From assembly GCA_001769535.1 (NCBI GenBank), contig MEOH01000027.1, forward strand, positions 1-32,552: DNA of 32,552 bases, read 5' to 3'. Below the pieces are notes generated by a model that did no database searches, was not told the DNA's origin, and saw only the letters and a program-made list of their open reading frames with translations. This DNA comes from Bacteroidetes bacterium GWF2_38_335. Lineage in GTDB: Bacteria > Bacteroidota > Bacteroidia > Bacteroidales > GWF2-38-335. The stretch's first letter is position 1, and each line of letters begins with the position of its first letter. Shown in pieces: positions 2,018 through 29,216 of the stretch. Both the position numbers and the translations under genes were made by a program.

Positions 2018-4358
2018 TTACAACCATGTTTTTGGTATAAATGAATTTGCATTTCTTTGCAAAATCTGTATTCCTGAGTTTTATTTCAGTTTTATTTTCC
2101 GGAATAGCTTTACCCGAAAACTTCCATACGCCAATGATCTGGTCTTTCCCGTTATTGTCAAGACCATGAAGCAGGAATAAAATATCATCATCGGGGTGGT
2201 GTACGATGCTGGCCGGATGGTAATCAATCCATGTCTGCTTTTTATAAGGATCCATTGTGTGTGAAAACCTGATAACATTTTTCCCGTGCAATATTTGCAG
2301 ATAAACTCCCTGATAATCTTTCTTCATTTTTCGGGGCTTGCATTCAAAACTGCTTATTTGTATTGAATTAAGAGCCGGAATTTCCATTGTATAACCCGTT
2401 GTTTGTTCCCCAACGGTTAACCCGTTAAATGGGAAAAAAGCTTTGTCATAAACATTGATGCTGATCTCATTTATACCGGACATCTGATACCATGGTTTAA
2501 AAAACGCGAGGGTATCATCCGGAATATCATATTTTTGATTTAAAATCAAACTGTCGGTTCCCTGTTCTCTGATTTGGCAACTTATATCCATACCGGCTTT
2601 TGCAATCTGGTTATCATATCCTTCAGGGACAATGGGAACAGAGATCAGTTCAAAACCCGCAAGCCCGTCCTTCTTTGTTAACTTTCTGAGTGTATCGTTA
2701 AACTTAATATCGTCAACTTTTTGCGGCAGGACGAACTGTTGATCTGCAAATGTTTCAAGCACCATTCCACCTGTTTTGCTTATGATGTTCACGGCAGGTT
2801 TTAAACCCCGGGGAACACAATAATACGGAATATGAAATTCCCCTTCAGATTTTTCAAAATTTTTAAGTGCTTTAAATTCAGGCCTGTAATGAAACAATGA
2901 ATAATATTCAGAGTTGATTGTTTTGCCGGTGCTGTCAACCAGAGTAAAACTCAGGTTTAGTCCCTTGGTCCCGTTTTCAGCAACAAACTCAAATTTCTCA
3001 GAAAATCCTGATGTTCCTGATTTTTTGATTTGTTCCGTTTTGTAGTTTCTTTGAGAAATGGCCGGAATAACTGTCTTAATATATTTCATATCAAGATTTA
3101 TCATATTCTCATTGGAATAAGCGGTAAGGAGCTTTTCAAATTCGCCTTTTTTGGTTTGGATATCATAGCGTCCGAGTTCATCGTCATTGCCCACTGCATC
3201 AAAATCAATGGCAACAAAAGACAATGGATCGGAGTCAAAACCTTTCACAAAGCAGGTATCATCGTATCCGACGAAGGAATTTCGGCTGAGTGCTGATTTA
3301 TAAACGCTCTCGCGGCCCTGAACAATTTTCCACATGACATCCGGGTAACCTTTGCCCCTGTTTTTCTTTCCACCGGCAAAAATATTTATTATGGGAATAT
3401 TTTTTGCTGCAATATCATATTCACCACTGGCAATTTTCACGTTTCTGACCTGGAATTCAGATATAAAAATTTCAGGAATTTCAACTTTCAGAGAGGTTTT
3501 ACCAAGATCAGGAAAGTGGTATACACAGTCAAAATCTGTGGCAGCCAGGTTAATTTCCAGATTATAAGATCCCTGCAACAGGTTGAGTTTGCTAAGCGGA
3601 ATAAAAATACTGCAGGCCTGTTTGAATCCGGGTTCAATTGCGGGCTGTGATAAATATGGGCTCCATCCTGTGTTATAATAATCTGATGGCTTTTTATTTA
3701 CAATAAGAGCAAAAGGATATTTTTCATTCTTTATGGTTGCATAAAAGAAATAATTGAACCGCTCGGCTCCTTTTTCGGATCCGTCAATTTTTTCGGAAGG
3801 AAAAGTATAACAGGCTGTAAAACTTACATCAATACCTTTGATTCCGTCTTGCTCAAGAACTTTTGCATTTAAGCCCGATATGGTTATTTCCTGATCTTCG
3901 TACCGGTAAAATTCCGGTACAGTTATTCCAATTTCCTTCTCATAAAAAACGGGCATTGTTGTACCTTCATATTCTGAAAAAAGCTGTAAAACAATTTTCT
4001 GGTTTCCTTTTTCGAGTCGCAGCAATTTGAAAGGTAAAAATAAATTTACCTCATCGGCATTGTCAGATCGGTCATCGGTATGGATGAATCCGGCCAAATC
4101 ATCATTTTGGAGTAATATATTGCCTTCAGTGTCTTTTACAACCGGAACAATTTTATAGGTATTGTGAAAAAAATCATCAAAAGCCAGTTTGAATTCTATT
4201 TTACAGTCGATATTTACACCCAGTCCGCGCGTTATACTTTTCTCAGGCGATTTGATGTCAATTTTCTTCAGGGTAAAAACCTGGTCTTTCACTCTGTCTT
4301 GTGCACCAGCCGATGAAACAATAGCCACCAGAACAGCAACAAAAAATAATTTTCTCAT
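2013..4358 (-). CDS. Large exported protein of unknown function
   Basis: I do not recognise this 781-residue protein. The chosen ATG at 4358 gives a clean type I signal peptide (MRKLFFVAVLVAIVSSAGAQ, cut after about residue 19-20); the frame reads 13 codons further upstream, but that extension would bury the signal. The mature part is rich in alternating polar/hydrophobic strands and aromatic residues, with short segments suggestive of repeated beta-sandwich modules (for example KDTEGNILLQ and DSTGKTINSE). There is no sorting domain, lipobox or clear transmembrane helix, so a periplasmic location is the simplest reading. It starts 54 bp after tsaE on the same strand and is probably the last gene of a three-gene operon. 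The end of its reading frame lies inside the shared terminator. The signal peptide call is firm; the function is open. Confidence 0.8.
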   Translation of the reverse strand: MRKLFFVAVLVAIVSSAGAQDRVKDQVFTLKKIDIKSPEKSITRGLGVNIDCKIEFKLAFDDFFHNTYKIVPVVKDTEGNILLQNDDLAGFIHTDDRSDNADEVNLFLPFKLLRLEKGNQKIVLQLFSEYEGTTMPVFYEKEIGITVPEFYRYEDQEITISGLNAKVLEQDGIKGIDVSFTACYTFPSEKIDGSEKGAERFNYFFYATIKNEKYPFALIVNKKPSDYYNTGWSPYLSQPAIEPGFKQACSIFIPLSKLNLLQGSYNLEINLAATDFDCVYHFPDLGKTSLKVEIPEIFISEFQVRNVKIASGEYDIAAKNIPIINIFAGGKKNRGKGYPDVMWKIVQGRESVYKSALSRNSFVGYDDTCFVKGFDSDPLSFVAIDFDAVGNDDELGRYDIQTKKGEFEKLLTAYSNENMINLDMKYIKTVIPAISQRNYKTEQIKKSGTSGFSEKFEFVAENGTKGLNLSFTLVDSTGKTINSEYYSLFHYRPEFKALKNFEKSEGEFHIPYYCVPRGLKPAVNIISKTGGMVLETFADQQFVLPQKVDDIKFNDTLRKLTKKDGLAGFELISVPIVPEGYDNQIAKAGMDISCQIREQGTDSLILNQKYDIPDDTLAFFKPWYQMSGINEISINVYDKAFFPFNGLTVGEQTTGYTMEIPALNSIQISSFECKPRKMKKDYQGVYLQILHGKNVIRFSHTMDPYKKQTWIDYHPASIVHHPDDDILFLLHGLDNNGKDQIIGVWKFSGKAIPENKTEIKLRNTDFAKKCKFIYTKNMVVK

Positions 4359-7011: not shown

Positions 7012-7380
7012 TTATTTAAGGCAATCCAATGCCCAATCCTGCATTTCCTGATTGTCCATATTATTCTGAACTTCAATTGCACTGCCGTACTTGCTTTCCA
7101 GTTTTTCGAGCATGCAGCTGCAGTATTTTTCACCATCAAGGCCACCGCTTGACTGGTTAAAACTTTCAACACAAGATTTCAGAAACTGAGTGCGTTCAAA
7201 TTCGCTCCATGCGCCACCTGTTGATGCTTCTTCATCTTTTGTTACTTCATCTTCATTTGTTGTTTCTTCTGTTTTTTTACCGTCATCAGATTTTTTTTCG
7301 TCCTTTTTATCATTACAAGCAACGAAAGCAAGTCCGGCTACCAGTATAACAGACAATGCCAGAAATTTCAATTTTTTCAT
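7012..7380 (-). CDS. Cys-patterned small lipoprotein (paralogue A)
   Basis: 122 residues of unknown function. A lipoprotein signal ends in AFVAC with the lipidated cysteine at about residue 22. A highly charged Lys/Glu/Asp linker (about 23-55) follows, then a compact C-terminal domain with the pattern C-x16-C-x-C-x30-C-L-K at the very end. The same domain occurs in the neighbouring gene at 7567-7830, where FLKSC, DGEKYC-x-C and EMQDWA are identical. Four conserved cysteines in about 60 residues suggest two disulfides in the periplasm or a metal site; the sequence does not decide between them. The two genes are tandem, but a terminator separates them, so each is probably transcribed alone. Confidence 0.85.
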   Translation of the reverse strand: MKKLKFLALSVILVAGLAFVACNDKKDEKKSDDGKKTEETTNEDEVTKDEEASTGGAWSEFERTQFLKSCVESFNQSSGGLDGEKYCSCMLEKLESKYGSAIEVQNNMDNQEMQDWALDCLK

Positions 7381-7566: not shown

Positions 7567-7830
7567 TTATTTTAAGCATTCAACTGCCCAATCCTGCATT
7601 TCCTTGGCGTCCATATTTTTCTGGGCGTCTTCGGGATTGCTGTATTTGCCTTCGAGTTTGCCGAGCATACATTCGCAATATTTTTCACCATCCATTCCGG
7701 CTGCTTCACCGAATCCTGATTTACATGATTTCAAGAATTCTTCTTTATCGCTTGAAGACCATCCTGAACCGCATGATGAAAGAATAAATGCAGTAACTGC
7801 AGTAATTGCTAAAATACGTAAATGTTTCAT
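7567..7830 (-). CDS. Cys-patterned small lipoprotein (paralogue B)
   Basis: 87 residues from the ATG at 7830; the frame is open ten codons further upstream, but that would displace the signal peptide. The lipobox is LSSC with the lipidated cysteine near residue 20. The mature part is almost only the C-x15-C-x-C-x30-C domain seen in paralogue A, without its long charged linker. The last residues, EMQDWAVECLK, nearly match EMQDWALDCLK of paralogue A. This is a local tandem duplication in which the linker was gained or lost. Function unknown. Confidence 0.85.
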   Translation of the reverse strand: MKHLRILAITAVTAFILSSCGSGWSSSDKEEFLKSCKSGFGEAAGMDGEKYCECMLGKLEGKYSNPEDAQKNMDAKEMQDWAVECLK

Positions 7831-8269
7831 AGTAAATTCCTTAAAAACGTTCGCGCCCACTTTCGCAACCGTTTATTTTAATTAAACATCTCAGTGGGTT
7901 TTGAGTATACTAATTTACAAAAAAATGGTTACAAAATTATTTTAAGATTGTATTTCTTTTCTATTTTCCTCAGTTCTTCATATACAATCGGCATAATTTC
8001 AACGCCTGACAATTCAGCTTTTTTCAGCAGAAACAAGATTGTCAGCAAAAATAATTCGGCAATAAAAATCGTGTATTTTTTTAATTATCATTGCAACCTT
8101 TTTTTTCAAAATTACTTATTTGAATTTTCATGATTGAAAAAATATAATTAAAATTCGGAATTCATTAACAAAATCTGCACTTTTACGTAATCATTAAAAG
8201 TTTATTTGTTTTCGGATGATGAAAAGGATAATACTGAATCAATTTTAATGTAAGATCTGCTGTTGTTTT
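7831..8269. other. Gene-poor spacer, 439 bp
   Basis: AT-rich DNA without a convincing gene. It holds a possible structured leader for paralogue B: CCCAC (7856-7860) with GTGGG (7894-7898) enclosing GTTTA/TAAAC arms at 7871-7887. A TAATTTTG -7-like element lies on the minus strand (plus 7932-7939). On the minus strand an open stretch of 51 codons (8084-7929) lacks a good start; it encodes a hydrophobic segment followed by a charged tail and may be a gene remnant. The plus-strand ORF at 7894-8133 looks like its antisense shadow. No clear promoter was found for the antiporter gene. Confidence 0.5.
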
Positions 8270-14154: not shown

Positions 14155-17100
14155 TTAATACTGTCTGTTAGCCAGACTAACATAGTTGTTGTATCTCCAT
14201 TTTGCATCTTTTTCTGCAATGGTGAAGAGTTTTTCAGCTTCGGCAGGGAATGCTTTTTTCAATGATGAATAACGCACTTCGCTTGCAAGGAATGCCTGGA
14301 ATTTTGTCCAATCGGGTTCTTTTGAGTCAAGAACGAATGGATTTTTTCCTTCGTTTTCCAATAGTGGATTGTAACGATAATTGTGCCAATATCCTGCTTC
14401 AACTGCCCTGACTTCTTCCTGCTGGGTAGCGCCCATTCCGGCTTTCAGACCGTGAGCAATACAAGGAGCATAAGCAATAACAAGAGATGGTCCCGGATAA
14501 GCTTCAGCTTCTTTAATGGCTTTGAAGAACTGATTCTGGCTTGAACCCATGGCAACCTGAGCAACATAAACATAACCATAAGTCATGGCCATGGCACCAA
14601 GGTCTTTTTTACGGGTTTTCATACCTGAAGCAGCGAATTTGGCAACTGCACCAACCGGAGTTGATTTGGATGCCTGACCACCGGTATTGGAGTACACTTC
14701 GGTATCAAGAACAAGAATGTTTACATCTTCGCCGGAAGCAATAACATGGTCAAGTCCGCCATATCCGATGTCATAAGCCCATCCGTCACCACCAACAATC
14801 CAGATTGATTTTTTAACCAGATACTGTTCAAGAGAAAGTATTTCCTTTGCAATCGGATCATTTTCTTTTTTCAATAACGGAATCAGTTTATTGGAAATTT
14901 CAATGGTTTTTTCTGCATTCAGTTTATTGTCGATCCATTCTTTGAAAAGAGTTTTCACTTCGGCAGAAATTCCGGATTCCATTCCTTTAACCATACGATC
15001 CTGAATCCTGTTTCTCATGGCAGAAACTCCCAATCCGATACCAAAGCCGTATTCGGCATTGTCTTCGAAAAGTGAATTGGCCCATGCGGGTCCATGACCG
15101 TTTTTCCTGCTGGGGCAGTAAGGAGTTGCAGGAGCAGAACCACCATAAATTGAAGAACAACCTGTAGCGTTGGCAACAATCATTCTTTCACCAAATAGCT
15201 GAGTTACAGCCTTGATGTATGGAGTTTCACCACAACCTGCGCAGGCACCTGAAAATTCAAATAATGGCTGAGCAAACTGTGAGTTTTTAACAGATTGATA
15301 TTTGTCAACAATGGTATCTTTGTAACCAACCTGATGGTGCATGAATTCCCATCTTTCGATTTCGGCTTCCTGTGATCCGAGGGGTTTCATAACCAGGGCT
15401 TTTGTTTTTGACGGACAAACATCCACACAGTTTCCACAACCGGTGCAGTCGAGAACGCTAACCTGCATCCTGAATTTGAATGGTTTTGTTCCGCCGATAC
15501 CCTGAATAAGTTCAGTGCCTTTTGGTGCTTTTGCAGCTTCTTCGTCGGTTAAAAGGAACGGACGGATGGCAGCGTGAGGACAAACATAAGAACACTGGTT
15601 ACACTGAATACAGTTTGCAGGAACCCATTCGGGTACGTTAACAGCAATACCGCGTTTTTCGTAGGCTGTTGTTCCGGCCGGCAATGTACCATCTTCTCTT
15701 CCATTAAATGCACTAACAGGCAAAGTATCACCTTTCATTGCATTGATAGGCATCATCACGTTTTTGATGAATTCGGGAAGATCTTTTTTACCTTCTATAG
15801 GTTTAACAGTAATTTTTGCCCATTCTGCAGGAACAGCAACTTCTGTAACGGCACCACCTGCATCAACAGCAGAGTGGTTCATTTTCAGAATATGTTCACC
15901 TTTAGCACCATATGATTTATCAATGGCTTTCTTCATTTCCTTAACAGCAAGATCGTAAGGAATTACATTTGAAACTTTAAAGAAAGCAGCCTGCATGATG
16001 GTGTTGGTGCGGTTGCCCAGACCAATTTCCTCAGCAATTTTTGTAGCATTGATAATATACAACCTGATTTTTTTCTCGGCCAGGGTTTTCTTCATGTGGT
16101 CGGGGAAACGGTTTTTAGTTTCTTCTTCATCCCAGATGCTGTTGAAAAGGAATGAACCACCTTCTTTAATACCCTTTAGCATATCATATTTATCGAGATA
16201 TGAAGGAACGTGACAAGCAACAAAATCGGGAGTTCCAACAAGATATGGAGCCCTGATCGGATGGTCGCCGAATCTCAGGTGAGAAGCAGTGATACCGCCT
16301 GATTTCTTTGAGTCATAAGCAAAATATGCCTGACAGTATTTATCGGTTTCTTCACCAATGATTTTGATGGAGTTTTTATTTGCACCAACTGTACCATCTG
16401 CACCCAATCCGTAAAATTTAGCTTCGAATGTGCCTTTTGGTAACACGTTGATATCTGGTAAATATGGAAGAGATGAATGTTTTACATCATCAACGATACC
16501 GACTGTAAACTGGTTTTTAGGTTCTTTCAGTTTCAGGTTTTCAAAAACTGACTGCATCATGGATGGAGTGGTGTCTTTTGAACTCAAACCATATCTTCCA
16601 CCAATGATCATTGGCGCATTTTCCTTACCGTAGAACATTTCCTTAATATCAAGATATAAAGGTTCTCCGTTTGCACCAAGTTCTTTGGTCCTGTCTAAAA
16701 CACAAATTCTTTTTACAGATTTCGGGAATACTTTAAAGAAGTATTTGCTTGAGAACGGACGGTATAAATGAACGGTAATCAAACCAACTTTTTCGCCTTT
16801 TGCATTCAGGTAATCTATAACATCTTTAATTGTGCTGGTGATTGAGCCCATGGCAACAATAATATTTTCTGCATTGGGATCGCCATAATAATTAAACGGA
16901 TGGTATTCTCTGCCGGTGATTTTTGCAACCTCGTTCATGTAATGTTCAACGGTGTCAGGAACGGGATCATAAAATCTGTCGGATGCTTCTTTTGCCTGGA
17001 AGAAAATATCAGGATTTTGTGCAGATCCCCTTGTAACAGGATGCTCAGGGTTAAGTGCATTATGTCTGAATTTCAGAAGAGCTTCCTGATCAACAAGATG

Positions 17101-17682
17101 CGCAATATCTTCATTTTGGAAATATTCCACTTTCTGAACTTCATGGGAAGTTCTGAATCCGTCAAAGAAATGTACAAACGGAATTCTTGTTTTGATGGCA
17201 GTGAGGTGGGCAACACAGGCAATATCCATGATTTCCTGGGCACTTCCGGTAGCAAGAAATGCAAAACCGGTTTGGCGGCAAGACATCACATCACTGTGGT
17301 CACCGAAAATTGAAAGTGCATGGGCAGCAAGTGTTCTGGCACTAACATGAAATACTGCGGGAAGCAATTCACCGGCAATTTTATACATGTTTGGAATCAT
17401 CAGGAGTAAACCCTGAGATGCAGTATAGGTACTGGTTAAGGCACCACCCTGCAACGATCCGTGAACTGCACCGGCGGCACCGGCTTCTGATTGCATCTCG
17501 GAAACTCTAACTGTTTCACCGAAAATGTTCTTTTTTCCATTTGCTGACCATGTATCAACATACTCAGCCATGTCGGATGAAGGGGTGATCGGATAGATCG
17601 CAGCTACTTCACTGAACATGTAAGCCACATGTGCTGCTGCATAGTTTCCTTCACAGGTAATGAATTTTTTTGTTTTTGTCAT
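14155..17682 (-). CDS. nifJ: Pyruvate:ferredoxin (flavodoxin) oxidoreductase
   Basis: A single-chain PFOR of 1175 residues that oxidatively decarboxylates pyruvate to acetyl-CoA with ferredoxin or flavodoxin as acceptor. The start at 17682 is chosen because AAGGAT sits 7 nt upstream (a rare Shine-Dalgarno here) and the protein then begins MTKTKKFITCEGNYAAAHVA, as in the family. Domain order: pyrimidine-binding domain (YPITPSSDMAEY near 35), CoA/transketolase-C-like domain, EKR linker, a 2x[4Fe-4S] ferredoxin domain (CIQCNQCSYVCP near 690 and CTGCGNCVDVCP near 747), then the TPP domain (GDGWAYDIGYGGLDH near 962). Ligands of the proximal cluster are visible as CAGCGE (about 815), ATGCSS (about 840) and APCIAHG (about 1069). 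The gene is intact and monocistronic. It supports an anaerobic or fermentative life style. Confidence 0.98.
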   Translation of the reverse strand: MTKTKKFITCEGNYAAAHVAYMFSEVAAIYPITPSSDMAEYVDTWSANGKKNIFGETVRVSEMQSEAGAAGAVHGSLQGGALTSTYTASQGLLLMIPNMYKIAGELLPAVFHVSARTLAAHALSIFGDHSDVMSCRQTGFAFLATGSAQEIMDIACVAHLTAIKTRIPFVHFFDGFRTSHEVQKVEYFQNEDIAHLVDQEALLKFRHNALNPEHPVTRGSAQNPDIFFQAKEASDRFYDPVPDTVEHYMNEVAKITGREYHPFNYYGDPNAENIIVAMGSITSTIKDVIDYLNAKGEKVGLITVHLYRPFSSKYFFKVFPKSVKRICVLDRTKELGANGEPLYLDIKEMFYGKENAPMIIGGRYGLSSKDTTPSMMQSVFENLKLKEPKNQFTVGIVDDVKHSSLPYLPDINVLPKGTFEAKFYGLGADGTVGANKNSIKIIGEETDKYCQAYFAYDSKKSGGITASHLRFGDHPIRAPYLVGTPDFVACHVPSYLDKYDMLKGIKEGGSFLFNSIWDEEETKNRFPDHMKKTLAEKKIRLYIINATKIAEEIGLGNRTNTIMQAAFFKVSNVIPYDLAVKEMKKAIDKSYGAKGEHILKMNHSAVDAGGAVTEVAVPAEWAKITVKPIEGKKDLPEFIKNVMMPINAMKGDTLPVSAFNGREDGTLPAGTTAYEKRGIAVNVPEWVPANCIQCNQCSYVCPHAAIRPFLLTDEEAAKAPKGTELIQGIGGTKPFKFRMQVSVLDCTGCGNCVDVCPSKTKALVMKPLGSQEAEIERWEFMHHQVGYKDTIVDKYQSVKNSQFAQPLFEFSGACAGCGETPYIKAVTQLFGERMIVANATGCSSIYGGSAPATPYCPSRKNGHGPAWANSLFEDNAEYGFGIGLGVSAMRNRIQDRMVKGMESGISAEVKTLFKEWIDNKLNAEKTIEISNKLIPLLKKENDPIAKEILSLEQYLVKKSIWIVGGDGWAYDIGYGGLDHVIASGEDVNILVLDTEVYSNTGGQASKSTPVGAVAKFAASGMKTRKKDLGAMAMTYGYVYVAQVAMGSSQNQFFKAIKEAEAYPGPSLVIAYAPCIAHGLKAGMGATQQEEVRAVEAGYWHNYRYNPLLENEGKNPFVLDSKEPDWTKFQAFLASEVRYSSLKKAFPAEAEKLFTIAEKDAKWRYNNYVSLANRQY

Positions 17683-17909
17683 TTTTAAATCCTTTGTATT
17701 AATATTGTTCAACTTGAGTCCAAAAAATTTTAGGGCATGCTAATTTATAATAAAAATCAGATTTCCTTTATGATTTACAACCTGTTTTGGGAAAGTATTA
17801 TTTAGACTTGATAAAAATTGATTCGTAATAATTATAATAGGCTAACAATAAATAAGTTAAAAATTGTGTTAAAAATATCAGATGCTAAGAATTATTAAGT
17901 TTTTTCGGA

Positions 17910-17934: not shown

Positions 17935-18147
17935 ATGATTAAGCTATTTAAAAAATCACTGGTTTTTATCGTTACGGGATCATTTACCGTTATTCTGGCT
18001 GCCTGTTATGGCAGTCCGCAAAAAGCTTCAGCTTTCAACAAAACACCGGGATTGAACAACAGTAAAAAAGCCATTGAAGGTTTGGTGCTTAAGAATGTTG
18101 AATATCTCACTGGCGTTGATGAAGAGAAAGCAAATTGTTTTATTTAA
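17935..18147 (+). CDS. Short lipoprotein, truncated-looking paralogue in the rSAM/lipoprotein cassette
   Basis: 70 residues. The first 27 align with the next gene's product at about 18 identical positions, including MI-x-LFKKS, the LAACY lipobox and the following Ser, so the two are tandem duplicates. After the lipidated cysteine (about residue 24) it keeps a CYGSP-type start and one segment (KKAIEGLVLKNVE) that can be laid over GQPIPGLKVTNTQ of the paralogue. It then ends at EEKANCFI, whereas the neighbour continues for another 70 residues. It could be a decaying copy or a genuinely short peptide substrate with its own C-terminus. The 10-bp gap to the next gene puts it in the same operon. 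Function unknown. Confidence 0.65.
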   Translation: MIKLFKKSLVFIVTGSFTVILAACYGSPQKASAFNKTPGLNNSKKAIEGLVLKNVEYLTGVDEEKANCFI

Positions 18148-18157
18148 ACATCTTTTT

Positions 18158-18520
18158 ATGATCAGGCTATTTAAAAAATCAATTTTATTTTTGGTCTCCG
18201 GAACATTTTCAATAATACTTGCTGCATGTTATGCATCCCAGGAACCATATACCTATTATAAAAAGGTTCATGCACGCACTCCGGACGGGCAACCGATACC
18301 CGGACTGAAAGTCACCAACACACAAAACGGGGTTGTAGTTCAGACAGAATTTACCGATGATGCAGGCATTGCCAACATGCAAAGAAATACCGAGGCACCA
18401 AGCACCATCTTTAAATTTGAAGATGTTGACAGTACCCAAAATCTGGGACATTTCGAGTCATTCGAATATTCGCTCGACACACTTGATGTTGATACAATTT
18501 ATTTTTACGAGGTAGAATAA
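18158..18520 (+). CDS. Putative lipoprotein of the rSAM/lipoprotein system
   Basis: 120 residues from the ATG at 18158; the frame is open further upstream, but only this start gives a signal peptide. The lipobox is LAAC (Cys24). The mature part carries a Tyr-rich start (YTYYKKVHA), a carboxypeptidase-regulatory-like strand (DGQPIPGLKVTNTQNG), a TDDAGIANM turn, then a FEDVDSTQNLGHFES segment typical of the lipoproteins found beside SPASM radical SAM enzymes in Bacteroides relatives (I recall this pair as TIGR04134/TIGR04133). It ends IYFYEVE. The mature protein has no cysteine beyond the lipidated one. The stop codon directly abuts the GTG start of the radical SAM gene, implying coupled translation and a functional partnership. 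Its role is unknown; it may be the enzyme's substrate. Confidence 0.85.
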   Translation: MIRLFKKSILFLVSGTFSIILAACYASQEPYTYYKKVHARTPDGQPIPGLKVTNTQNGVVVQTEFTDDAGIANMQRNTEAPSTIFKFEDVDSTQNLGHFESFEYSLDTLDVDTIYFYEVE

Positions 18521-19597
18521 GTGAACCCGGCAGATTCTTTAAGGTCATCCCTTCACAATTATTATAAGAAACTTGAAGAGAAATCGCATCTTCTCAATTA
18601 TTTGTTTCTTGAGATTACCCGCAAATGCAATCTGAATTGTCTGCATTGTGGTTCGGACTGCAAAAATGATGCACAGGCACCCGAACTGACTACCGAAAGC
18701 TGGTTTAAAATCATTGATTACATAAAAGAGGCATTTTCGGAAAAAGTCTCCTTCATCATTACCGGGGGCGAACCGCTTATGCACCCCGACCTGTACAAAA
18801 TCGGAAGTCATATCTCAAAAAACAACATGAAATGGGGCATGGTCACCAATGGCATGACACTTGATCAAAACGCAATGGAAAGCCTCATTAAATCAGGCAT
18901 CAACAGCATCACTATTTCAGTGGATGGCAATGAAACCGCCCACAATAAGTTGAGAAATTCGCCTGCAGCTTTTAAGAAAATGAGTCTGGCACTGGACTAT
19001 ATTGCTGATTCCGGACTAGAATACAGAGATGCGGTAACCTGTGTATATCCCGGCAATCTTAACCAACTCGATGAAATTGCCGAATTTTTGATCGTAAAAA
19101 AAATGCCCGCATGGCGTCTTTTTAGAATATTTCCTTCGGGAAGGGCACATGAAAATGATGAGATTTTACTCAGTTTTGAGCAGACACAGGAACTTGTTGA
19201 CTGGATAAAAACCAACAAAAAGAAATACGCTAAAAAAGGACTGAAAATCAATCTCAGTTGCGAGGGGTGGATGCCTTTTAATATTGATAAACAAGTGCGC
19301 GACAATCCTTTTTTCTGCAGGGCCGGAATCAATTTCGCCTCCATTTTATGCGATGGCACCATTACCGGTTGCTCCAACAACCACCACACATTTTATCAGG
19401 GAAATATTTTGACAGATAATATGAATTCAGTCTGGGAACACAAATTTGAAGATTTCAGAAAACGGGAATGGCTGAAGAATACTGTTTGCAATGATTGTAA
19501 GGAAGTTAAAAACTGCAAGGGAGGGTCAATCCATCTTTGGGATTTGGAGAGGGACAGGCCGAATTTTTGTTATTATCGGGATTTGGGGGATGAATAA
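18521..19597 (+). CDS. Radical SAM/SPASM enzyme of the rSAM/lipoprotein system
   Basis: 358 residues starting with GTG directly after the upstream TAA. The S-adenosylmethionine-binding [4Fe-4S] motif is C-x3-C-x2-C at Cys36, Cys40 and Cys43; GGEP at 82-85 is the second radical SAM motif. The C-terminal half is a SPASM domain with cysteines at 266, 277, 284, 323, 326, 332 and 350, enough for two auxiliary clusters, and the signature NCKGGSIHLW (331-340). SPASM enzymes usually modify peptides or proteins (anaerobic sulfatase maturases, PqqE, thioether-forming enzymes). Together with the adjoining lipoproteins this matches the Bacteroidota rSAM/lipoprotein pair of unknown function. The enzyme has no signal peptide and should be cytosolic, so any modification of the lipoproteins would precede export. 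A strong hairpin closes the operon. Confidence 0.92.
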   Translation: MNPADSLRSSLHNYYKKLEEKSHLLNYLFLEITRKCNLNCLHCGSDCKNDAQAPELTTESWFKIIDYIKEAFSEKVSFIITGGEPLMHPDLYKIGSHISKNNMKWGMVTNGMTLDQNAMESLIKSGINSITISVDGNETAHNKLRNSPAAFKKMSLALDYIADSGLEYRDAVTCVYPGNLNQLDEIAEFLIVKKMPAWRLFRIFPSGRAHENDEILLSFEQTQELVDWIKTNKKKYAKKGLKINLSCEGWMPFNIDKQVRDNPFFCRAGINFASILCDGTITGCSNNHHTFYQGNILTDNMNSVWEHKFEDFRKREWLKNTVCNDCKEVKNCKGGSIHLWDLERDRPNFCYYRDLGDE

Positions 19598-19622
19598 CCC
19601 CGGCCTTAAGGCCGGGGTTATT
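19593..19622. terminator. 30-bp perfect palindrome, bidirectional terminator
   Basis: AATAACCCCGGCCTT (19593-19607) is followed by its exact reverse complement (19608-19622). It includes the rSAM stop codon (19595-19597) and touches the first base of the convergent stop codon (19622-19624). It is near-identical in layout to the element at 1987-2017. Confidence 0.9.
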
Positions 19623-22468
19623 TACCTCTTCACAAACTTCACAACCATTTCTTGTCCCTTTTCATCACATATCCGCAACATATAAATGCCTTCATTCAAA
19701 AAAGACACATCCACTTTTGTTCCGGTTCCCTGGGAAAGCACTTCACCCAGTAAATTGAAAATCGTGAAGGAATAATTTTCCTCAGGTAAAATGTTCAGGT
19801 AATTTTCGGTGGGGTTTGGATAAACGATCATCTTCGGCAATTCACCTTCCCCAATGGTTACAAGCGAATCAACGATGGTGTTCACTGTGGTGTTGGTCAC
19901 CACCGGTTCGTTAAAATCGAAGTAGATGTGAGCGGTGTTTTCAATCACATCGCCAATAGTAGCTTCGTCCTTCAATCTGATGGAATAACTGACCAGTCCA
20001 TGGCTCTCCGGCTCGTTGGTAACGCTGTCGGGGAGCATGATATCGGCAAAGGTGAACTTTAACAGTCCTGTGCCCGATATATCCCATGTGTAATTATGGC
20101 TGGCGCCGAGCGGCTGGAAGGTTGAGATATCAAGGAATTCCGAAATGGTATCGAGGATAACTACGTTATAAGCCACATCGGTGCCAGTGTTTTGGAATTG
20201 GATGGTGTAAGTAAACAGACTGTCGGTTTCGAGGATGTTGCCGGATTCGCCCTGGCCCATGGGGGTTACCATTTTGTGGTTGGGGTCTGCGGATGCCATT
20301 ATCAATCTTTGAATCTCATCGTAATTGTTTTCCATATTCTCTTCCAATACCCCCATGCTTACATCTGCGTTGCTGAATAACAATTCATCAACAGAACCTT
20401 CACTAATCAAAAATGTTACATTAACAATTTTAATTTCACCCGGTTCAATATTCTCTAGGTCCCATTTAAGAGAAGTGTCAGAAAGTTCTGAAGGTGGCAG
20501 GGAACTGTAAAAATAATTCTGCCATTCTTCAAAATAAAGATGAACCGAATAATTTGGAATATTGACATCGCTATTGTTTTTAACTATAAAACCCATGTGA
20601 AAAGGTTGGGAATGAATAGCACTTGAGGCAAAAAGGTCTATTTCAAGGTCATTAATAATTGGTGCCTGATTGCCAAAATCAAGATTTTCCAAGCTATCAG
20701 ACAAAGAAAGGTTGATATTATATAGATTTCCCGATGGGCATTCAATTTCATCAGTTGGGTAATCAACTAAAGAAACTGAATAATTTCCATCGTTCATGTA
20801 AGCAATGTAATTTCCCTCTATATCAGTGACAGCATAATAAGGCCCGGGCAGTATTTCAATAAGCCTTCCGTCCAAAGCATAATCCCCGGCATCAAAAACA
20901 CAATTAGTGTTTAAATCCTGATATACCTTTCCTGATATCACCGAAGGTCTATCAACCACGTGATAGGTGTGGTAATACTCGCTAACACAACCGGTTCCAT
21001 CCAGCAAACTGTACAAATAGGTATAAGTGCCTTCCTGAGTGGGCAGTGATTGGGCAAATGTTTCTTGTGAATTGACGATATTTTCGCCTGTCCAGTTTGA
21101 TGAAACATAGTGTGTTACCAATGAGGATGGAATTTCATATAAGTCATATGAAAATTCAACATTCCAACAAAATATGTAACCATTATCTATGGCCCAATTA
21201 TCAGCCACTGTCAATACCCAATCTCCGTTTAATTCACATCCAACAAGAGGATCCAATGGTTCGGATGAAATATACGAACCAGAGGGCAGAGTTGCCCAAC
21301 TGCCTGCTGCATCACCCATATCCATTAAATAGTCGGCATCAGCGGGATTGGTCCAACAATAATCCCAGCCAATCCCGGGAGTTGGGTTTGATTCGTCACC
21401 TTCAACGGGTTCTCCAAGATATGTTCCGCCTCCATGTTGGTATTCAAGAATAACAGATACAGGCCCTTCAGTAATGACATTGTAAGGACAAGTAATCATT
21501 ATCGGAGATAAATCCCCAATAAAAGAATGTTCCATATTTGCACAAATCCTAATGTCTTCAATATCTTCTAATATTTGCCCCGGAGAAAAACAATTATAAG
21601 TTAGCGTGTCACTATATATGTCCGTGCCATCCGGAATCAATTCGCCGTTTTCACAATCGGTCAAACCGGGATAATGCACATACGCATTCAAATCAATGGT
21701 ATCGCCTAGTTGGTACGTTGTAAAATCGGGTGGGGAAAAGCTGACTTCTCCTGCAAAGCCGTGAATGACGTAGGTATTTATAGAATTAGTGCTGGAGCAG
21801 CCCTGTGCATCGGTTACCACCAGATTAACTGAGAAAGTCCCGTTTTCGTTGAAAAGATGCGAAAACTCTTGTCCGGTAGCTGTTTCCTCCCCATTGACAA
21901 ACCAGGTATAGGTGGATGTGGCATCATCCTGAAGATAAGTCGTGTTTTGATAAACGGCTTGCCCGGTAAGGTTTACCATAACATCCTCACAACTGTTCAA
22001 CTGCCATTCCCCTGAAATGAATTCAAAAACGGGTTCGTAAATGCTTAACTGGGCAAGCACCGACTGACACTCAAAACCACAACCAATTTCAGCAGAAATC
22101 ACAGATCCTGCTGCCGGTGATGCAAACATTAAAGTGAGGCAACCTGAAGTGTTTGAAGCATATGCGCTTACAGTCTCGCCCATTCCCCATCCATTGCAAT
22201 TAATGAGGGCCGCCGATGTTGTATTCCCGTCATAAATGCAAAAATTTCCACTGGCATATGTTGCCGAAGTAAAAGTCAAAGATATATGCGAACAAAGAGG
22301 GTCTTCGCTGCAAATTGTTACGGTATAAACCATTCCGGGCGTATATGAACCCAGTTCGATGGTTCCTGTTGAGGTAAAAATGTTTTGTCCTGTGTTATCA
22401 GTTAATGTATACTGCGAAATTCCCTGAAGAAAAGAGAAGACAAGAAACAGAAGGGTAATTTTTTTCAT
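19622..22468 (-). CDS. Multidomain surface protein with P-domain, PKD, DUF11-like and T9SS sorting domains
   Basis: 948 residues. Signal peptide (MKKITLLFLVFSFLQGISQ). Then in order: a CUB-like cysteine-containing beta module (about 20-130, with FCIYDGN); a PKD/Ig-like domain (about 150-235, TYTWFVNGEE through VTDAQGCSS); a proprotein-convertase P-like domain (about 310-450, HSFIGDLSPI through GDWVLTVADNWAIDNG); an SdrD-B-like/CNA-like module (about 510-600, SGKVYQDLNTNCVFD); a DUF11-like DUF7619 domain (about 725-860, ADPNHKMVTPMGQG through ENTAHIYFDFNEPV); and a T9SS type A sorting domain (about 870-948, VYPNPTENYLNILP through MVVKFVKR). No catalytic domain is present, so it is probably a surface binding or structural protein. 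A 6-bp inverted repeat AGACAA/TTGTCT lies about 30-45 bp upstream. Confidence 0.9.
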   Translation of the reverse strand: MKKITLLFLVFSFLQGISQYTLTDNTGQNIFTSTGTIELGSYTPGMVYTVTICSEDPLCSHISLTFTSATYASGNFCIYDGNTTSAALINCNGWGMGETVSAYASNTSGCLTLMFASPAAGSVISAEIGCGFECQSVLAQLSIYEPVFEFISGEWQLNSCEDVMVNLTGQAVYQNTTYLQDDATSTYTWFVNGEETATGQEFSHLFNENGTFSVNLVVTDAQGCSSTNSINTYVIHGFAGEVSFSPPDFTTYQLGDTIDLNAYVHYPGLTDCENGELIPDGTDIYSDTLTYNCFSPGQILEDIEDIRICANMEHSFIGDLSPIMITCPYNVITEGPVSVILEYQHGGGTYLGEPVEGDESNPTPGIGWDYCWTNPADADYLMDMGDAAGSWATLPSGSYISSEPLDPLVGCELNGDWVLTVADNWAIDNGYIFCWNVEFSYDLYEIPSSLVTHYVSSNWTGENIVNSQETFAQSLPTQEGTYTYLYSLLDGTGCVSEYYHTYHVVDRPSVISGKVYQDLNTNCVFDAGDYALDGRLIEILPGPYYAVTDIEGNYIAYMNDGNYSVSLVDYPTDEIECPSGNLYNINLSLSDSLENLDFGNQAPIINDLEIDLFASSAIHSQPFHMGFIVKNNSDVNIPNYSVHLYFEEWQNYFYSSLPPSELSDTSLKWDLENIEPGEIKIVNVTFLISEGSVDELLFSNADVSMGVLEENMENNYDEIQRLIMASADPNHKMVTPMGQGESGNILETDSLFTYTIQFQNTGTDVAYNVVILDTISEFLDISTFQPLGASHNYTWDISGTGLLKFTFADIMLPDSVTNEPESHGLVSYSIRLKDEATIGDVIENTAHIYFDFNEPVVTNTTVNTIVDSLVTIGEGELPKMIVYPNPTENYLNILPEENYSFTIFNLLGEVLSQGTGTKVDVSFLNEGIYMLRICDEKGQEMVVKFVKR

Positions 22469-22562: not shown

Positions 22563-22710
22563 ACTGCGGGAAGTGATTGAGATGCCCACCTTCGGCCCCT
22601 CCGATTAGAATTTACGGGAAGCGATAGAGAGATCCCACCCCCTACCCCTCCTGATTGGAATTGCAGAAAGTGACAGTGATATCCCACCCCCAACCCCTCC
22701 CAAGGAGGGG
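22563..22710. repeat. Three degenerate ~50-bp tandem repeats ending in a C-rich hairpin
   Basis: Units begin near 22563, 22613 and 22663. Each has a GGGAAG/AGAAAG-like start, then GATNNCCCACC and a CCCCTCC core, then GATTAGAATT or GATTGGAATT in the first two. The third unit ends in the perfect hairpin CCCCTCC-CAA-GGAGGGG (22694-22710). Base composition is far more C-rich than the surroundings. Short C/G-rich elements of this look are scattered in many Bacteroidota genomes. Confidence 0.6.
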
Positions 22711-27450: not shown

Positions 27451-29028
27451 ATGAAAAAAACATTCACAATAAATATCAGCGGGCAGATTTTTCATATAGA
27501 TGATGATGCCTACGACCGTTTGCAGGGATATCTGAATTCGGTACACCGAAAATTTTCGAATGAAGAGGAAGGCAATGAAATTATTTCAGATATTGAATCA
27601 AGGATTGCCGAACTTTTCAGTGAAAAAATCACCGGCAGTAAACAGGTCATCACCATTGAAGATGTAATAGCTGTAATAAAAATAATGGGTGAGCCCGAAG
27701 AGTTTGAAGACAGTAATAAGGAAGATAAAAAACCGGATGAACCACTTGAGTCAGGAAAGGGAAAACGAGTTTACCGCGATCCGGAAGATATGATTATTGG
27801 CGGTGTTTGCGGTGGTTTCGGAGCCTATTTCGGTCTTGACCCGTTAATTTTCAGAATTACCTTCATTGTGTTGACATTACTGTTTGGGGCAGGTTTCTGG
27901 ATTTACCTGATATTATGGGCTGTTGTTCCCAAAGCCCGCACCACGGCAGAAAAACTTGAGATGAAAGGCGAAAGGGTAAATGTTTCAAACATTGAAAAAA
28001 CCATCAGGGAAGAATTCAGTAACGTAAAGTCAAATATTAAAAATCTTAAAAAAAACAGGAAGTATGGCGAGACGCGCAACTTTTTTGAAAACATTTTCGA
28101 AAATCTTGGTGACGGGTTTCGCACTTTTGCAAAAACGATGGTAATATTTATAGGTACAGGCTTTGTTATATTTGGACTTTTCATGCTGCTGACCTTCATC
28201 TCGTCCTACTTTTTTGAAGACAGTTTCTTTTCCTACACATCCTGGTCGTCGCATTCCCACTCCATTTACACAATGTTTGAAACAGTGGTTAGTCCGGCCA
28301 ACGTAACCATGATATTTCTCGGATTGTTTTTCGTAATCGGAATTCCCCTGATTGCAATGGTTTATGGGGGTATAAAAATGATTTTTAATTTGCGCACCAA
28401 CAACAGAATGGTTGGCATATCCTTCCTTGCTTTCTGGATTTTGGGAATTATTATTCTGGTAGTTGTGGGAATCAGTGAAGGAAGAAATTTCAGGACAAAA
28501 GGAAAAGACATAACCGTCCATTCTTTAACCGGCATGTCTTCGGACACTTTGTATGTTACCATGAACAACGATGGCATGGAAGATGATCTTTTAAGCATTC
28601 ATGAAAACACCCTAAATCTTCTGCAAATTGATGATGAATATGTTATGATGGGCCGGCCGCAATTATCAGTTGTATTGAGTGAGTCGAAAAGCTATGAATT
28701 GATCATTAAAAAGCGGTCACGCGGAAGAAACAAAGCCGACGCCAACGAAAACTCCGAAGAAATCATTTACAACTGGAATTTTGAGGGTTCAACCCTTGTT
28801 CTTGATAATTATTTCAAACTGGCAGCAGATGAAAAATGGCGCCGTCAGTCAATGGAGCTTATCCTGAAAGTTCCCTATGGGAAAACCGTCTATTTTAACA
28901 AAAACGTTGATGATATTATGAATGAGGTGAGCAATACCGACAATATAATTGACGAAGATATGACAGGCAAAATGTGGCGTATGGGAAAAGAAGGATTGTC
29001 ATTGGTTCCTGATACATCTAGGTATTGA
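27451..29028 (+). CDS. PspC-domain membrane protein
   Basis: 525 residues. Residues 1-100 form a soluble cytosolic region (ISDIESRIAELF and VIKIMGEPEEFE are conserved in this family). The PspC domain spans about 105-163 (RVYRDPEDMIIGGVCGGFGAYFGLDP) and contains the first transmembrane segment(s), about 133-159. Further hydrophobic helices lie at about 229-251, 285-309 and 320-341. From about 345 a soluble beta-rich C-terminal domain follows, with an auto-transporter-adhesin-like look (SDTLYVTMNND, NWNFEGSTLVLDNYF). PspC proteins sense or respond to envelope stress in the phage-shock response; no pspA is present here. It follows padR closely and is probably in its operon. The topology is inferred from hydropathy by eye. 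Confidence 0.9.
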   Translation: MKKTFTINISGQIFHIDDDAYDRLQGYLNSVHRKFSNEEEGNEIISDIESRIAELFSEKITGSKQVITIEDVIAVIKIMGEPEEFEDSNKEDKKPDEPLESGKGKRVYRDPEDMIIGGVCGGFGAYFGLDPLIFRITFIVLTLLFGAGFWIYLILWAVVPKARTTAEKLEMKGERVNVSNIEKTIREEFSNVKSNIKNLKKNRKYGETRNFFENIFENLGDGFRTFAKTMVIFIGTGFVIFGLFMLLTFISSYFFEDSFFSYTSWSSHSHSIYTMFETVVSPANVTMIFLGLFFVIGIPLIAMVYGGIKMIFNLRTNNRMVGISFLAFWILGIIILVVVGISEGRNFRTKGKDITVHSLTGMSSDTLYVTMNNDGMEDDLLSIHENTLNLLQIDDEYVMMGRPQLSVVLSESKSYELIIKKRSRGRNKADANENSEEIIYNWNFEGSTLVLDNYFKLAADEKWRRQSMELILKVPYGKTVYFNKNVDDIMNEVSNTDNIIDEDMTGKMWRMGKEGLSLVPDTSRY

Positions 29029-29032
29029 AATT

Positions 29033-29216
29033 TTGCAGAGACGCAAAATTTGCGGAAATGGAATATTTGCAGAGACGGAATATTTGCAGAGACGGAATAT
29101 TTGTAGACGCAAAATTTGTAGAGACGTAAAATTTTGCAGAGACGCAATGATTTGCAGAGACGCAAAATGTTGTAGAGACCAAAATTTTACAGAGACGCAA
29201 AATATTGCGTCTCTAC
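29033..29216. repeat. Array of ten 17-bp repeats with a terminal inverted copy
   Basis: Units close to TTGCAGAGACGCAAAAT start at 29033, 29050, 29067, 29084, 29101, 29116, 29134, 29152, 29170 and 29187. The unit at 29101 is two bases short, and the unit at 29050 is the most diverged. The last unit forms a hairpin: AGAGACGCAA (29191-29200), loop AATA, TTGCGTCTCT (29205-29214). There are no unique spacers, so this is not a CRISPR. Confidence 0.9.

Follow-up and report, generated by a model that had tools for sequence, protein, structure and literature searches.

A 32,552-nucleotide stretch of DNA from Bacteroidetes bacterium GWF2_38_335 (hereafter "the window") carries two tandem lipoprotein genes followed by a gene for a radical SAM (rSAM)/SPASM enzyme. 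This cassette is real and not a product of chance, because a lipoprotein-rSAM cassette is also present in a congener (L011/L052) and because a lipoprotein gene lies beside most of the related rSAM genes that we examined. Judging from the partner proteins, the enzyme very probably acts at an X-Tyr-Gly (XYG) motif. Overall, we give about an even chance to the more specific reading that it is a maturase that excises tyramine at the XYG motif of exported lipoproteins. Both proposals were made because X-Y-G-x-P recurs in this system and because some rSAM enzymes nearer to the family TIGR04103 also adjoin XYG proteins. The observations on which they stand are the cassette itself, the conservation of the motif, the co-occurrence of enzyme and lipoprotein families, and the existence of unlinked motif-bearing proteins.

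Gene layout and family assignment

The first lipoprotein gene (lipoprotein 1; 17935-18147, + strand) encodes 70 amino acids that comprise a signal peptide with the lipobox LAAC, the sequence CYGSP, and a short tail. The codons for A-C-Y-G-S-P, which hold its XYG motif, occupy positions 18001-18018 (+). After a gap of 10 bp, the second gene (lipoprotein 2; 18158-18520, +) encodes 120 amino acids, again with the lipobox LAAC, in which the signal peptide is followed by CYASQEP and a transthyretin/CnaB-like beta-sandwich. The GTG start codon of the rSAM/SPASM gene (18521-19597, +; 358 amino acids, with the sequence CNLNCLHC) directly abuts the TAA stop codon of lipoprotein 2. A preliminary description of this DNA had reported the same tandem layout and coordinates, and reading the sequence bore them out. 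A 30-bp palindrome (19593-19622) spans and trails the rSAM stop codon between convergent genes, and is likely their shared terminator.

The two lipoproteins share signal-peptide coding stretches that are near-copies in a DNA alignment. Lipoprotein 1 ends early within the region that forms the beta-sandwich in its relatives and retains CYGSP, and lipoprotein 2 has the domain and lacks an XYG motif. Therefore, the two are not equivalent, because one has the motif with little of the domain and the other has the reverse. The earlier statement that there is no Cys beyond the lipidated one is correct for lipoprotein 2 but not for lipoprotein 1, which carries another Cys close to the C-terminal end (...ANCFI).

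The window rSAM matches nearly the full TIGR04133 profile (rSAM_w_lipo) with 347.2 bits, which does not reach the cut-off of 425, and this is its best family by far (the next family scores 126 bits). Its Pfam matches are Radical_SAM (78.5 bits) and SPASM (30.4 bits), and it has both the CxxxCxxC motif and the C-terminal SPASM cysteines of this superfamily. Lipoprotein 2 scores 23.3 bits against TIGR04134 (lipo_with_rSAM), also below the cut-off (39.8 bits). A profile search with lipoprotein 1 gave no match in NCBIfam or Pfam, TIGR04134 included, and the idea that it is an NVEALA-type peptide was dropped on this basis. Lipoproteins of the same clade reach 39.5 bits (the congener's orthologue), 43.0 bits (G084), and 47.0 bits (G287) against TIGR04134, and thus the clade, with members at 23.3 to 47.0 bits, straddles the cut-off. 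The preliminary assignment to TIGR04133 and TIGR04134 was therefore near the mark without being exact: since both scores are under the curated cut-offs, the window pair is close to these families but outside them. We regard the cassette as a diverged sister of the NCBIfam pair. It has the same gene pair, fold families, and rSAM group, as well as XYG in partner proteins, but it belongs to a separate clade with ACYG lipoproteins that includes members from metagenome-assembled genomes (MAGs) labelled as other phyla.

Both NCBIfam entries are uncharacterised hypothetical equivalogs. Searches of the open-licence literature for TIGR04133, TIGR04134, TIGR04103, TIGR03913, and IPR026404, and for rSAM-lipoprotein phrases, found none of these terms, and the accessible part of PMC8939145 does not mention the pair.

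Phylogeny, residues, and predicted structures

In a quick tree of 75 rows, the window rSAM falls in a clade with ACYG-type enzymes (29 rows; SH-aLRT 98), which adjoins the canonical group and a second Bacteroidota group. All 57 lipoprotein rSAMs group together at an SH-aLRT of 86, which is below the 95 mark, and they are separate from TIGR04103/TIGR03913-like and AhbD-like rows. The tree has long outgroup branches, and the outgroup does not fall on one side of a branch; under these circumstances a sister relation between the lipoprotein rSAMs and TIGR04103/TIGR03913 was not recovered. The enzyme thus groups with lipoprotein-associated rSAMs rather than in a clade known for some unrelated function, which agrees with the preliminary description in tying it to lipoproteins.

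An alignment with 100 lipoprotein rSAM rows revealed that C36/40/43 and C266/284/323/326/332/350 (window numbering) are present in 100/100 rows, and that additional cysteines at positions 47, 174, and 247 are near-invariant. C-G-S likewise follows the third cluster Cys in 100/100 rows. The equivalent C-[GA]-S occurs in 9/9 TIGR04103/TIGR03913-like rows and in 0/5 AhbD-like rows, and the lipoprotein rSAMs resemble the TIGR04103-like rows in this respect. At position 336, where 9/9 TIGR04103/TIGR03913-like rows have a SPASM Cys, 100/100 lipoprotein rSAMs have G, S, or A, and the absence of this Cys weakens the case for a close tie to TIGR04103/TIGR03913.

The predicted structure of the rSAM (pLDDT 92.8) has only a short N-terminal helix in front and resembles SPASM/twitch enzymes including SkfB, SuiB, BlsE, and PqqE. 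No chain named PlpX appears among the structure matches listed (best 50 of 137 at E<=0.001) or among the 26 listed matches to solved structures. The model of lipoprotein 2 (pLDDT 78.7) consists of a signal helix and a beta-sandwich. The closest structural match, to the N-terminal extension domain of the SusC transporter BT3090, has E 5e-4; CnaB and transthyretin-like domains rank lower. By sequence, matches of the lipoprotein to solved structures are weak (best E 0.009).

The XYG motif in partner proteins

For the survey, 295 genomes of the order were sampled evenly from a larger group. TIGR04133 matches at E<=1e-70 were found at 82 places in 67/295 genomes, and after two outgroup-like matches (L050 and L051; 241-247 bits) were set aside, 80 places in 65 genomes remained. 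A script identified a nearby lipoprotein with YG in its mature part at 69/80 loci and with YGxP at 65/80. The loci with YG only are L054 (CYGVD), L066 (MYGVI), L075 (MYGVR and AYGTF), and L053, where the match is a chance YG in another protein; the real XYG lipoprotein at this last locus (KYGAP and KYGSP) lies about 2.4 kb upstream and was catalogued as L252. Reading by hand added two loci that the script filter had missed (L056, CYGTP; L088, CYGMP), and the downstream partners at L062 and L068 have a signal that ends in ...IIAQYGAP without a lipid Cys. Three loci (L048, L061, and L116) are at contig ends. After the hand check, a secreted XYG protein is present at 73 of the other 77 loci, which have enough flank, and no adjacent XYG protein was found at L063 (assembly gap), L076, L082, or L119.

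The enrichment is far above what composition predicts. We assembled a set of 89 lipoproteins in direct operon chains with the enzyme at 66 loci, and YG is present in 84/89 and YGxP in 74/89 of them. Shuffling the same mature sequences 2000 times gave YG in a mean of 25.2 (max 40) and YGxP in a mean of 1.25 (max 6), and YG is the most enriched dipeptide in the mature portions of these 89 proteins. For background, we took the 59 lipoprotein-like frames that are at least 120 aa long and located away from rSAM genes in the retrieved stretches; YG lies within the first 90 mature residues in 16/59 and YGxP in 7/59, and all 7 of the latter come from loci that had been retrieved for a TIGR04133 or TIGR04134 match. 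YG is missing from five operon-adjacent lipoproteins: the window's lipoprotein 2, two proteins at L053 (one of which reads CYAPAP), an unrelated-looking protein at L063, and one encoded by a short frame at L108. Since L053 also combines motif-bearing and motif-less proteins, this mixture is not unique to the window. L053 and L252 (genome G244) constitute a second cassette in which motif-less lipoproteins are close to an XYG one.

The survey collected 119 motif sites, of which 111 have full context (8 were left out). The residue before Tyr is C (24), E (23), K (16), V (13), M (9), or others; Pro is present at Y+3 in 81/111 sites; and a second aromatic residue is often present at Y+7 (Y 26, F 19). 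With Cys before Tyr in only 24/111 sites, sactipeptide- or ranthipeptide-type chemistry at Cys was rejected as the common reaction. The distance between motif and lipid Cys reaches 80 residues in some members, and the motif is repeated up to three times within one protein. It occurs both with and without the beta-sandwich domain, including in short partners that lack the domain. These findings bear on the two target sites suggested in the preliminary description. The survey points to the XYG motif behind the signal peptide instead of the Tyr-rich N-terminal stretch, and the Asp/Asn segment, which is the DxD..N.G of the conserved beta-sandwich, was rejected as the modification site.

Occurrence across genomes supports the same association. 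TIGR04134 matches at E<=1e-8 are present in 39/295 genomes, and 38/39 of these genomes also have a TIGR04133 match at E<=1e-70, compared to 8.9 expected (hypergeometric 2e-28). In G226, the sole exception, the partner is a long secreted protein that contains QYGAI. This co-occurrence, together with the gene-neighbourhood survey, establishes that the enzyme-lipoprotein link proposed earlier is real and specific. Furthermore, 11/12 TIGR04134-like proteins encoded off the rSAM contigs (in G226, without any rSAM) keep XYG, with L260 as the one that does not, and several of them have a non-lipid signal (...AQYG).

The genome that contains the window also has unlinked motif-bearing proteins. Contig C11 carries a canonical TIGR04133 enzyme (537 bits) preceded by four small frames that, by eye, have signal peptides, and their motifs are AYGTG; KYGIP, KYGVQ, and KYGIP; KYGGP; and KYGVD. 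Three further TIGR04134 matches above the cut-off are located on contigs C26 (two in tandem) and C2, and these proteins carry EKYGV, TEYGC, and CKYGT. No rSAM gene was found in the stretches of approximately 3.4 kb read around them. In total, at least 7 XYG proteins besides lipoprotein 1 are encoded in this genome. Because lipoprotein 1 keeps XYG and lipoprotein 2 has lost it, the likely substrates would be lipoprotein 1 and these unlinked proteins, not the Tyr-rich or Asp/Asn segments of lipoprotein 2.

To look beyond the phylum, we scanned contigs. The single window protein as the query found nothing, and an alignment of the window clade as the query provided the best 80 loci. Many of these are in MAGs labelled Spirochaetes, Deltaproteobacteria/Myxococcota, Nitrospirae, Fibrobacteres, Holophagaceae, and Sumerlaeota, labels that can be wrong. 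Of 47 loci examined from this set, 40 have a neighbouring lipoprotein in which CYG starts at the lipid Cys. Two of the others (L149 and L160) are at contig ends, and no adjacent XYG protein was found at L165, L180, L183, L188, or L202. A strict pattern over the best 80 loci and the window yielded 50 ACYG-type frames (lipoprotein 2 included, and one row shifted by a CC pair). A basic residue ([RK]) is present at -18 in 47/50 and at -17 in 43/50, and across these 50 frames the ACYG signal peptide is uniform in length and pattern.

Proposed tyramine excision and competing readings

TIGR04103, which we take to be the PlpX splicease family, gives the window rSAM 103 bits, far below its cut-off of 725. 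The NirJ2 or heme b synthase profile outscores it in 4/4 lipoprotein rSAMs scanned. When TIGR04103/TIGR03913-like proteins are ranked by profile, TIGR04133 comes third for L122 and L124 and fourth for L127.

According to the accessible parts of two reports, PlpXY cuts out a tyramine unit at X-Y-G, which leaves an alpha-ketoamide and lowers the mass by 135.0757 Da; MYG and LYG are its natural sites, and the tags used with it contain PIRPLYGLPI (which includes YGLP) or its GYG form (PMC10533398, PMC11002830). The accessible text of one of them assigns the PlpXY splicease of spliceotides to IPR026482 (PMC11002830). The other describes tagged FtsZ in which 2 insertions were spliced and only some positions were accepted, which indicates that XYG alone is insufficient for PlpXY and that context matters (PMC10533398). 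Like PlpXY, the window SPASM rSAM adjoins a protein with X-Y-G(-x-P), namely lipoprotein 1. In contrast to PlpXY, its TIGR04103 score is low, it lacks one SPASM Cys, and it is predicted to act on a secreted, signal-peptide-bearing lipoprotein and not on a peptide with a Nif11 or nitrile-hydratase leader. Gene content and the structural model revealed neither a candidate PlpY/RRE gene in the window cassette nor a large N-terminal domain in the rSAM. No link between spliceases and lipoproteins was found in the open-licence literature.

In Bacteroidota, TIGR04103/TIGR03913-like rSAM genes adjoin XYG proteins at 4/11 distinct loci (L122, L123, L125, and L127). The small partners at L122 and L123 are DUF1843 peptides (Pfam DUF1843 at L122) with PYG, AYG, or LYG near the N-terminus, a likeness between the TIGR03913 "GDL motif peptide" rSAM system and the window cassette, and the L125 partner carries ...LYGTP. 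By eye, the DUF1843 partners have no signal peptide, unlike those of the window. No convincing XYG partner was seen at the other 7/11 loci (L124, L126, L128, and L144-L147), and the words "radical SAM" are absent from the text of the DUF1843 structure paper (PMC10994174). At L127, in the same order as the window, a frame at 2955-3599 (+) downstream of the TIGR03913/TIGR04103-like rSAM has six KYGYP repeats and no Pfam match.

If the enzyme acts at XYG, the reaction might still differ. It could form a Tyr-centred C-C, C-O, or C-N crosslink (a cyclophane or a PqqE/mycofactocin-like product), oxidize Tyr, or act at the Gly alpha-carbon, with -x-P serving as a turn, and we consider this group of chemistries possible although not the favoured outcome. 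SPASM enzymes are chemically diverse, and profiles for the mycofactocin maturase, NirJ2, and AhbD give scores similar to that of TIGR04103. The mycofactocin enzyme MftC and PqqE are themselves SPASM rSAMs that act on peptide Tyr, and the window enzyme would resemble them in this respect, but theirs are RRE-assisted peptide systems with motifs other than XYG. The frequent aromatic residue at Y+7 would suit a crosslink. Against this, Y+2 is widely variable, with Gly in some sites (KYGGP), and Y-1 is also variable, so that no constant residue stands out as the other half of a crosslink. Gly strictly follows Tyr, in keeping with the splicease rule.

A second alternative concerns the window alone. 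The cassette could be decaying after a tandem duplication, with one lipoprotein truncated, the other motif-less, and the C11 paralogue doing the work. The state of the two lipoproteins and the presence of the canonical C11 cassette with its four XYG proteins in the same genome favour this view, which we nevertheless judge improbable. The three frames are all open and tightly packed, and the rSAM retains its catalytic and clade-invariant residues. Moreover, short XYG lipoproteins without the domain recur elsewhere (L072, L168, L194, and C11), and lipoprotein 1 therefore need not be debris.

The least probable reading, by a small step, is that the lipoprotein is no substrate but a partner, located in the periplasm or outer membrane, within a shared pathway, with CYGxP as an export, sorting, or membrane-surface signal: lipoprotein sorting signals do act at +2/+3 of the lipid Cys, where the ACYG-class motif is located, and motif-less lipoproteins persist in cassettes (the window and L053), but a sorting signal would not explain motifs distant from the Cys, repeated copies, or placement after non-lipid signal peptides (L062 and L068).

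Under the proposal of tyramine excision, the cytosolic rSAM/SPASM enzyme would act at X-Tyr-Gly(-x-Pro) behind the signal peptide, presumably before Sec export and lipidation. Lipoprotein 1 (CYGSP) would be its substrate in cis, and the seven or more further XYG proteins would be processed in trans or by the paralogous C11 enzyme. The signal peptide of the ACYG class may double as a RiPP-type leader, and lipoprotein 2, with its site gone, probably has a structural or presenting role via its beta-sandwich. More tentatively, and with somewhat less confidence than in excision as such, we suggest that a widespread group of lipoprotein spliceases removes tyramine at X-Tyr-Gly to leave surface alpha-ketoamides, in the ACYG class on the lipidated Cys itself with the signal peptide as the leader. 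On this joint reading, the group would span Bacteroidota as well as MAGs labelled Spirochaetota, Myxococcota, Nitrospirota, and others. More speculatively still, such surface alpha-ketoamides could inhibit proteases or bind amines.

The survey provides a concrete predicted target for an orphan family pair present in 65/295 genomes of the order (two outgroup-like matches excluded). If tyramine excision is correct, backbone splicing would reach membrane-anchored proteins, beyond secreted natural products; gut and environmental bacteria would display reactive alpha-ketoamides at their surface; and spliceases that may function without a separate RRE protein would become available.

Several other features of the window were recorded. 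A gene that by eye resembles pyruvate:ferredoxin oxidoreductase (14155-17712, -) is divergent from the cassette and could be a chance neighbour or an electron source. Two nearby paralogous frames resembling small lipoproteins (7012-7380 and 7567-7860, both -) have in common GEKYCxCML and a C-terminal DWAxxCLK pattern. A large gene for a secreted-like protein occupies 19622-22468 (-), and between it and a rho-like gene is a 49-bp unit in about 2 copies (22596-22700). Finally, a 17-bp unit is repeated in tandem about 10.5 times at 29028-29208, immediately after the frame at 27451-29028.
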